Positions 38,270 through 41,164 of a stretch of 41,264 nt of DNA are shown one piece after another (position 1 is the stretch's first letter; the number at the start of each line of letters is the position of its first letter). The stretch comes from Deltaproteobacteria bacterium (GTDB lineage: Bacteria; Myxococcota_A; UBA9160; SZUA-336): positions 1-41,264 of the forward strand of contig VGRW01000026.1 of the NCBI GenBank assembly GCA_016875225.1. The letters run 5' to 3'. A model generated the notes under the pieces. The model saw only the letters and a program-made list of their open reading frames with translations. It had not been told where the DNA came from and did not search any database. Both the position numbers and the translations under genes were made by a program.

Positions 38270-39205
38270 ATGGTCGAGACCTTTCGCGAGTTCGGGATCT
38301 CGGACGCGCTCGACGTCGGGATCGTCGCGGTGCTGCTCTACGCCGGAATCTCCTGGCTGCGCCGCTCGCAGGCGGCGTTGGTGGCGCTGGGCATGGGGCT
38401 GCTGGGCCTGGTGTACCTGGCGGCGCGGCTCTTCGACCTGCAGCTCACGACCTGGGTCTTCCACGGCTTCTTCGCCGCGGCCGCTCTCGTGCTCGTGGTG
38501 ATCTTCCAGGAGGAGCTGCGGCAGGGCTTCGAGGAGCTCGCGGCCGTCGCGATGGGCCGGCGCGAGGACCCGCGTCCGCGACTCGACTCGACCGAGGTGC
38601 TGGCGCGCGCGCTCGCGCGGCTGGCCCGCGAGAAGCACGGGGCGCTGGTCGTGATCGCGGGACTGCAGAAGCTCGACCGCCACCTTTCGGGCGGCGAGCT
38701 GCTCGGCGGGCGCGTCTCGGAGGCGCTGATCGAGAGCCTGTTCGACCCTCACTCGCCCGGTCACGACGGCGCGGTGGTGATCTCGGACCGCGACGTCGCT
38801 CGCTTCGGCGTGCACCTGCCGCTGGCGCGCGGCGCGAACCTGCCGCACGGGCTCGGCACGCGGCACAGCGCCGCGCTCGGACTGTCGGAGCGCACCGATG
38901 CGCTCTGTCTGGTGGTCTCCGAGGAGCGCGGCGCGATCTCGGCCGCGCGGCACGGAGCACTGCAGGCGGTCGAGAGCGCGGCGGACCTGGAGCGCCTGAT
39001 CGCCGCGTTCCACCGCGAGCGACGCGCGCTGCGCGGCTCGCGCCCGAGCCTGCGCGGCGCGCTGCAGGGACACCGGCTGGAGAAGGCCGCGGCGCTCGTG
39101 CTCGCGCTCGCGCTCTGGCTGGTCGTGGCGGGCGCGGGACCGGAGCGCGCGGTCGCGGCCGGCCAGGCCGAAGGCGCGCGCAGCAGCGCGAGCGCGAAGC
39201 GCTAG
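38270..39205 (+). CDS. cdaA: Diadenylate cyclase (c-di-AMP synthase), CdaA-like
   Basis: Membrane c-di-AMP synthase of 311 residues; condenses two ATP. Three hydrophobic segments (about 14-30, 34-52, 62-80) precede the DAC domain. The domain has IFQEELRQGFEEL, GLQKLDRHLSGG, the catalytic DGA at 166-168 (SPGHDGAVVISD) and RHS at 198-200 (GTRHSAALGLSE). After it comes a C-terminal hydrophobic helix (272-288) with a following hydrophilic tail that resembles the first helix of a CdaR/YbbR protein, so a fused remnant is possible. GAGGGGCG precedes the ATG. No cdaR or glmM follows. A c-di-AMP riboswitch lies 7.5 kb away. Confidence 0.95.
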   Translation: MVETFREFGISDALDVGIVAVLLYAGISWLRRSQAALVALGMGLLGLVYLAARLFDLQLTTWVFHGFFAAAALVLVVIFQEELRQGFEELAAVAMGRREDPRPRLDSTEVLARALARLAREKHGALVVIAGLQKLDRHLSGGELLGGRVSEALIESLFDPHSPGHDGAVVISDRDVARFGVHLPLARGANLPHGLGTRHSAALGLSERTDALCLVVSEERGAISAARHGALQAVESAADLERLIAAFHRERRALRGSRPSLRGALQGHRLEKAAALVLALALWLVVAGAGPERAVAAGQAEGARSSASAKR

Positions 39206-39948
39206 GCGGGAAAGCGCGCGGACGCGCGCAGGCCCAGACGGGCGAGCCGGAACTCGACGCCGGTCGCCAGACAGCCGAGCCCGTAGCGCACGCTGCGCGA
39301 GAAGTTGATCGACGAGGCCTCGGGAAAGTACAGCGTCGGGCAGGTGATCTCGGCGATCTCGGAGCCGCGCCAGAGGATCTCGGCCAGCATCTGGTTGTCG
39401 AAGAGGAAGTCGTCGGAGTTCTCGTCGAGCGGAAGCGCGCGCAGCAGCTCCGCCGAGAACGCGCGGTAGCCGGTGTGGAACTCCGAGAGCTTCGAGCCGA
39501 GCAGCCAGTTCTCGGCGAGCGTGAGCACGCGGTTCGAGACGTACTTCCAGATCGGCATCCCGCCGCGCAGCGCGCCGCCGCCGAGGATGCGCGAGCCGAG
39601 CACGCACGGATAGACGTCGCCGCCGACCAGCGCCACCATCGCGGGCAGCAGCTTCGGCGTGTACTGGTAGTCGGGGTGCACCATCACGACCACGTCGGCG
39701 CCCGCGGCGAGCGCCGCGCGGTAGCAGGTCTTCTGATTGGCGCCGTAGCCGCTGTTCCTCTCGTGCACGATCAGCTTCGTCTTGGCAAGCGTCGCCGCGA
39801 TCCGAGCCGTCTCGTCGGTGCTCGCGTCGTCGACGACGATCAGCTCGTCGACGATGCCCTGCGCCATCACCTCTTCATAGGTGCGGCGAAGTGTTCGCGC
39901 CGCGTTGTACGCGGGCATCACCACGACCACTCGTCTGTCTCGGTACAT
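39202..39948 (-). CDS. Glycosyltransferase family 2
   Basis: GT-A fold glycosyltransferase of 248 residues. VVVMPAYNAARTLRRTYEEV opens the protein, VVDDASTDET carries the nucleotide-sugar contacts, and the D-x-D-like HPDYQY follows VVVMV. NRVLTLAENWLLGSKLSEFHTGYRAFS resembles dolichol-phosphate mannose synthase-like bacterial enzymes that transfer sugar to polyprenol or lipid carriers. It has no long membrane domain. The ATG at 39948 has GGAG seven bases upstream; a further ATG at 39966 is less likely. The 3' end overlaps the diadenylate cyclase stop by four bases on the opposite strand. Confidence 0.93.
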   Translation of the reverse strand: MYRDRRVVVVMPAYNAARTLRRTYEEVMAQGIVDELIVVDDASTDETARIAATLAKTKLIVHERNSGYGANQKTCYRAALAAGADVVVMVHPDYQYTPKLLPAMVALVGGDVYPCVLGSRILGGGALRGGMPIWKYVSNRVLTLAENWLLGSKLSEFHTGYRAFSAELLRALPLDENSDDFLFDNQMLAEILWRGSEIAEITCPTLYFPEASSINFSRSVRYGLGCLATGVEFRLARLGLRASARFPA

Positions 39949-40006
39949 CCTCGGCTCCGCGCGCATGATACGGTCTGCGCTCGGTATCGGCTCCGGGGAG
40001 ACGAGA

Positions 40007-40360
40007 ATGGACGAGCTCGAGGGATTCCAGCGCCGCCACCTGCGGTCGCTCGCGCACCCGCTGAGGCCCGTGGTGATGATCGGCAAGGAGGGCCTCACCG
40101 AGGCCGTGCTCGCCAAGACCGACCAGGAGCTTCTCGCGCACGAGCTGATCAAGGTGCGCTTCGGCGACTGGAAGGAAGAGAAGCGCGCGCTTCTGGCCGA
40201 GATGGCCGAGAAGCTGCTCGCCGAGGTCGTCGGCGTGGTCGGACACGTGGGCATCCTGTTCCGGCAGAACCGTGAGCCGAAGAAGCGCAAGATCCGCGTG
40301 CCGGCGCGGCCGCGAGCTCAGGCGGGCCGGGCCGGCGGCGGCGGCGGCGCGGGCTCGTAG
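40007..40360 (+). CDS. yhbY: YhbY family RNA-binding (CRM domain) protein
   Basis: CRM-domain protein of 117 residues that binds pre-50S ribosomal particles. Features are RRHLRSLAHPLRPVVMIGKEGLTEAVL (with the GxxG RNA-binding loop), DQELLAHELIKVRFGDW, and VGHVGILFRQNREPKKRKI. A disordered Gly/Ala/Arg-rich tail of about 20 residues is extra compared with E. coli YhbY (97 residues). GGGGAGACGAGA precedes the ATG. The last 43 bases overlap the end of the convergent selenoprotein gene. Confidence 0.94.
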   Translation: MDELEGFQRRHLRSLAHPLRPVVMIGKEGLTEAVLAKTDQELLAHELIKVRFGDWKEEKRALLAEMAEKLLAEVVGVVGHVGILFRQNREPKKRKIRVPARPRAQAGRAGGGGGAGS

Positions 40361-41088
40361 TCGACCAGGAGCGGTCCCCGCTCCGCCGGCGTCTCGAGCA
40401 GTCGAAGCGCCGCCTCGATCACCGCGTGCTGGCGCTCGGGCTGGTTCGGCGCGTCGAGCGGGTAGCCGTGCCGGAACGGGAGCGCGAGCGCTCGCGGTGG
40501 ACGCACGCGCTCGGCAACGCTGCGAAGCAGCACCAGCGCCACCGTCGAGATGCCGTTTCGCTCCAGCTCCGCCGCGGCCAGGCACACGGCCTGGTTGCAC
40601 ATCGGTCAGACGGGGACGAGAAGCGCGGCTTGGACGCCATCGGCCAGCGCGTCTGCGGCCATCCGCGGCAGCGTCTCGGCCACGAAGCGACCCGGCGCGG
40701 TGATGCTCCCCATGAAGCTCCAGTGGCGGTGGTTCAGCGAGCCGATCCGACCGCGCAGGGCGAGCTCGCGCGCGCGCTGGAGCGGAAACGCCAGGTTCGG
40801 GTCGCTTTGCATCCCCGCATGGTCGAACGACTCGCTGCGGTGCGTGTCGACGAGCGCGGCGGGATCGGCGTCGCTCGGGATCTCGCGGAAGCTCGGGTCG
40901 CCGCCGCGAATCCCCTCGTCGAAGGCCGGCTGCCCCGGCATCACGAAGCCCGCGCTCGAGAAGAGCGCCAGCCGCGCGCGCGCGAGCGGCACGCGCAGCG
41001 GAGCCCAGGGGACGGGATCGACGACCCGCCAGCGGTAGCCGCGCAGGAACATCCGGATCGGCAGCGAGAACTCGGAGAGATCGCCCAC
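40318..41088 (-). CDS. GrdB-like selenoprotein (glycine/sarcosine/betaine reductase selenoprotein B family), TGA read as selenocysteine
   Basis: Reading through one in-frame TGA (40606-40608) gives 256 residues. Before it are SEFSLPIRMFLRGYRWRVVDPVPW, FDEGIRGGDPSFREIP, HRSESFDHAGMQSDPN and SFMGSITAPGRF; after it CNQAVCLAAAELERNGISTV, RVRPPRALALPFRHGYPLD. Both halves are conserved in one family, so the gene is not simply truncated. Sec161 falls in U-P-M-C (Sec-x-x-Cys164), a redox motif. A 17-nt hairpin begins 11 nt after the TGA. The GTG at 41088 has AGGAGG about nine bases upstream. The reductase partners GrdA and GrdC are absent here, so the real substrate is unknown. Confidence 0.88.
40578..40594 (-). 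promoter_or_regulatory. Candidate bacterial SECIS hairpin
   Basis: On the minus strand CCAGGC and GCCTGG form a perfect 6-bp stem closing a 5-nt loop CGTGT. It starts 11 nt after the in-frame TGA and is 17 nt long, matching the spacing and size of the E. coli fdhF upper SECIS hairpin, with a G followed by U in the loop. The predicted role is to recruit SelB. Confidence 0.7.
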
Positions 41089-41164
41089 GGCGCGGCCTCC
41101 TGGCGAGAGGGTCGACGAGCACGCGACCGGCCGCAAGCCCGACTTGCTGTGGTAGCGTAGGCGC

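Follow-up and report, generated by a model that had tools for sequence, protein, structure and literature searches.

A single in-frame TGA near one end of the window, the 41,264-nt stretch of DNA analysed here, raises the question of whether the surrounding frame is one selenoprotein gene or two short genes, and what its product might do. The gene lies on the minus strand, which the initial annotation had left unnamed, at 40318..41088, with a GTG start at 41088 and a TGA stop at 40320-40318. Its translation gives 256 residues, with selenocysteine (Sec) at residue 161, and the Sec codon, placed by the alignment column of the homologues, is the TGA at 40606..40608 (minus strand) in the motif PV-U-P-M-C-NQ. 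A Shine-Dalgarno-like AGGAGG can be read from the sequence at 41096..41101 (minus strand), 7 nt upstream of the start codon. Beyond the TGA at 40608-40606, the frame holds 95 further sense codons before the terminal stop. Without recoding, the ORF listing gives a 160-residue product and a 94-residue ORF that starts from the ATG at 40602, exactly the two ORFs into which the initial annotation had expected standard gene calling to split the gene.

Comparison with homologues revealed that the TGA column is invariant in its codon. The homologue scan used a query with Sec written as Cys, so that the search patterns were not biased towards TGA, and it returned 54 non-duplicate homologues (43 close and 11 paralogous) from several phyla; the codon at this column is TGA in each of them, with no TAA or TAG. 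The close homologues are 51-69% identical along the length of the protein (alignment A1), and conservation extends to both sides of the TGA, as had been noted before. More distant relatives carry either Sec or Cys here, which is the exchange that the initial annotation had suggested looking for: tblastn found TGA in the PrdB of Ligilactobacillus and Peptoclostridium, and Cys in a Paraclostridium protein and in two members of the same phylum that have large genomes, the Cys forms having been missed by the pattern-based motif search. The second Cys of the motif varies as well. One orthologue (L042, 5001-5735) reads UPMS, with Ser in its place, which is either a real variant or a sequencing error. 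The genome itself holds two further TGA-bearing paralogues of ~34% identity, L081 (4146-4838 on contig C110) and L082 (8777-9424 on contig C12), and in L081 UPLD replaces UxxC, so that the resolving Cys is missing. The Ser in L042 and the Asp in L081 argue against a strict requirement for the UxxC pair.

The genome also encodes the machinery for Sec insertion. A search for selA, selB, selC and selD, proposed along with the original reading, recovered all four: the tRNA-Sec (selC) scores 75.6 bits, above the Rfam cut-off, and is called by ARAGORN with the anticodon UCA, while SelA, SelB and SelD each score above the curated cut-off in profile searches, the SelD match containing one in-frame TGA itself. 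Among 379 genomes of the phylum, tRNA-Sec is present in 67 of the 77 that carry a TGA homologue and in 148 of the 302 others (Fisher p 4.5e-10, not corrected for phylogeny). The latter count means that the Sec machinery does not require the PrdB-like gene; the ten TGA-carrying genomes in which no tRNA-Sec was found are drafts searched under strict filters.

Downstream of the TGA, a 17-nt stem-loop at 40578..40594 (minus strand; CCAGGC-CGUGU-GCCUGG) begins 11 nt after the Sec codon and folds into a 6-bp stem with the 5-nt loop CGUGU. In this GC-rich sequence alone, the hairpin is within chance (z = 0.07), being equalled by 46% of synonymous shuffles. Over the 54 homologues, with relatedness uncorrected, the mean energy of the best hairpin is -9.9 kcal/mol compared to -4.4 kcal/mol in synonymous shuffles (Wilcoxon p 1.6e-10), and the combined p for hairpin stability against the shuffles is 2e-17. 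Of the 43 orthologues, 19 have G-C and 22 have A-U as the second stem pair counted from the loop, beside the loop-closing C-G; the 3' partner of this second pair occupies a third codon position (AGC/AGT, GGC/GGT, TGC/TGT), so that a change there is silent in the protein. The GU of the loop is retained in nearly all orthologues. Because compensating changes keep it across the family, the hairpin is a bacterial SECIS element, and the stem-loop described in the initial annotation is thus borne out, with its conservation seen at the level of the family. Altogether, the homologues, the hairpin and the Sec machinery strongly support the proposal of a selenocysteine in a U-P-M-C motif, and 41088-40318 almost certainly encodes one full-length selenoprotein. 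Neither of the two outcomes that the initial annotation had named as refuting it, a genome lacking selB/selC or homologues lacking Cys and Sec at this position, was observed.

As for the family to which this selenoprotein belongs, the initial annotation had called it GrdB-like, a label that holds for the superfamily but not for the nearest family. The product matches Pfam GRDB (PF07355) at 23.5 bits, just above the gathering cut-off of 22, which places it in the superfamily, and all 53 aligned family members match PF07355 at E <= 0.01. The top NCBIfam model is PrdB (TIGR04483), at 96.4 bits against a curated equivalog cut-off of 300, followed by the B subunits of sarcosine, betaine and glycine reductase, all far under their cut-offs. 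The selenoprotein B models match the C-terminal half only, TIGR01917 at 37.5 bits against a cut-off of 602 and TIGR01918 at 33.6 against 65. The length of 256 residues is near the 238 positions of the PrdB model, compared to 431 positions in the GrdB model. Judged by these models, the product is assigned to the PrdB/GrdB superfamily as PrdB-like rather than GrdB-like, and it falls short of both equivalog models.

Compared to true PrdB, the protein has a similar length, similarity over residues 25-236, a Sec or Cys at the same column and the UxxC motif; however, it is only ~30% identical, and its motif reads UPMC-NQ instead of UGTC-H. The matches of a plasmid scan were likewise true PrdB only, at ~30% identity. 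In the tree, whose rooting is arbitrary, Bacillota PrdB and two Cys-PrdBs form one clade with 100/100 support, whereas the remaining rows lie on the other side, which spans Acidobacteriota, Verrucomicrobiota, Gemmatimonadota, Thermodesulfobacteriota, Nitrospirota and Planctomycetota. With GrdB, GrdF and GrdH (PF07355, TIGR01917, TIGR01918), the protein shares the UxxC redox motif and the GRDB match, but the similarity is limited to the C-terminal half of the models.

D-proline reductase relies on the pyruvoyl subunit PrdA and glycine reductase on its counterpart GrdE (both PF09338), the latter enzyme using GrdA as well. Profile searches of the genome found neither PF09338 nor GrdA (PF04723), at a completeness of 97.8% that leaves room for a missed partner. 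Both models performed as expected in positive controls, with PF09338 picking up PrdA in L. salivarius and Peptoclostridium. The genome thus lacks a detectable PrdA, with which PrdB works, as well as the GrdE and GrdA of the glycine reductase complex. Across the phylum, PF09338 was detected in just 4 of the 379 genomes, two with a Cys-PrdB and two that carry the TGA gene (G310 and G323), leaving 75 of the 77 TGA-carrying genomes with no detectable pyruvoyl subunit; draft incompleteness weakens single cases, not this ratio. With neither a pyruvoyl subunit nor GrdA detected, the product is unlikely to act as a D-proline or glycine reductase.

The exceptions differ in kind. In two large genomes of the same phylum, G369 and G371, which also carry tRNA-Sec, a Cys-type PrdB adjoins a PrdA homologue (L083, 6610-8892; L084, 6164-8446), apparently forming a complete D-proline reductase. 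In G323, a PF09338 match is found ~0.6 kb from a TGA-bearing family member on one contig (C348, 3204-5726), an arrangement that suggests a real two-subunit reductase in that genome.

Three other explanations of the locus were weighed against a partner-free selenoprotein. A genuine stop at the TGA, or decay of the gene, might seem to be favoured by the 94-residue ORF with its own ATG directly after the TGA and by a hairpin that is unremarkable by itself in GC-rich sequence. We rejected this possibility and regard it as extremely improbable, given that 54 homologues of several phyla all keep TGA at this position, with no TAA or TAG among them, that the downstream part is conserved and that Sec machinery is present. 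Databases and metagenome surveys name the relatives as the D-proline reductase subunit PrdB, and PrdB is indeed the best NCBIfam model here, covered over most of its length, in agreement with the motif and the protein length. A working PrdB was nevertheless discarded as very unlikely, on the grounds of a score of 96 bits against 300, the differing motif, the separate clade, and the lack of PrdA in a genome searched with a model that detects it in controls, a lack shared by 75 of the 77 TGA carriers of the phylum.

Somewhat less improbable, yet still unlikely, is that the protein provides the substrate subunit of a reductase of the glycine, sarcosine, betaine or fluoroacetate type, pairing with a distant or unrecognised partner to attack C-N or C-halogen bonds. 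The glycine reductase of the Grd complex works with a pyruvoyl subunit and GrdA (PMC13188914, PMC10838667), and a GrdB-like protein has been proposed as a fluoroacetate reductase (PMC10838667); the weak matches to the GrdF, GrdH and GrdB models agree with such a role. Against it stand the undetected GrdA and GrdE, the absence of the N-terminal half of GrdB and the probable aerobic respiration of the host. Nucleophilic dehalogenation without a partner is a possible version of the explanation that we prefer, a stand-alone selenoprotein.

The genomic setting also appears to differ from that of Stickland fermenters. The genome has three matches to the haem-copper oxidase family, one or more of which could be nitric-oxide reductases, and on the basis of these matches the bacterium can probably respire oxygen. 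Together with a fatty acid desaturase encoded in the window and the lack of GrdA and GrdE/PrdA, these genes support the aerobic-looking setting and the non-Stickland function put forward in the initial annotation.

Neighbouring genes pointed to no conserved partner: ORF clustering over 40 loci across phyla found only common families, such as ABC ATPases and short-chain dehydrogenases, or clade-limited neighbours. Since the window is a whole contig with the PrdB-like gene at its end, an upstream neighbour could be missed. On the other side, the gene is adjoined by genes for a CdaA-type diadenylate cyclase and a YhbY-type RNA-binding protein (window 38270-40360), the latter being convergent (ORF 39881-40360, plus strand) and overlapping the 3' end of the selenoprotein gene by 43 nt (window 40318-40360). 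This CdaA-type/YhbY-type/selenoprotein order recurs in one genome of the same family (L092, 6167-7422) and is confined to that family. An AlphaFold2 model of high confidence (pLDDT 93.4) matched no PDB entry by fold at E <= 0.001, and no match by sequence was convincing, so the structure gives no clue to function.

The present data provide strong grounds for a single PrdB/GrdB-superfamily selenoprotein with the TGA read as Sec, for which neither the D-proline nor the glycine reductase reaction is likely and a role as a stand-alone selenol reductant is proposed. We propose that SelB and tRNA-Sec decode the UGA at the hairpin, and that the selenol would then serve as a stand-alone nucleophile or reductant that attacks a small electrophilic substrate, a reductase chemistry proposed by analogy. 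Cys164 of the UxxC motif would back the selenol and resolve the intermediate, and thioredoxin or a comparable thiol might reset the resulting selenenyl-sulfide (Se-S) bond. Candidate reactions include the reductive removal of a leaving group, in analogy to fluoroacetate reductase, and the reduction of peroxides or disulfides, among which the evidence favours none.

PrdB-labelled selenoproteins have been known from ocean metagenomes since 2005 and are among the commoner marine families, with 42 such UxxC proteins, annotated as proline reductase, in the Sargasso Sea (PMC1088965) and 235 in the Global Ocean Sampling (PMC2398784), and the family appears in reviews up to 2026. The PrdB-like UxxC family is therefore already known, and the part worth following is the widespread lineage that lacks a partner, of which the ocean sequences, UxxC selenoproteins too, are likely putative members. 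In openly licensed full texts, we found no functional work on PrdB-like proteins that lack PrdA, nor any paper remarking on the absence of the partner. On balance, we lean slightly towards a widespread lineage of selenoenzymes that carry proline or glycine reductase labels, work without a pyruvoyl subunit, reside in hosts capable of aerobic respiration and catalyse a reaction not yet described.

For annotation, this means that gene callers will split the selenoprotein in two, and that those relatives that are named receive a D-proline or glycine reductase label, which, according to the partner survey, is probably wrong for most such genes in the phylum. As PrdB ranks among the commoner selenoproteins of the ocean, the true reaction of these proteins may matter for the use of selenium outside anaerobic Stickland fermenters.
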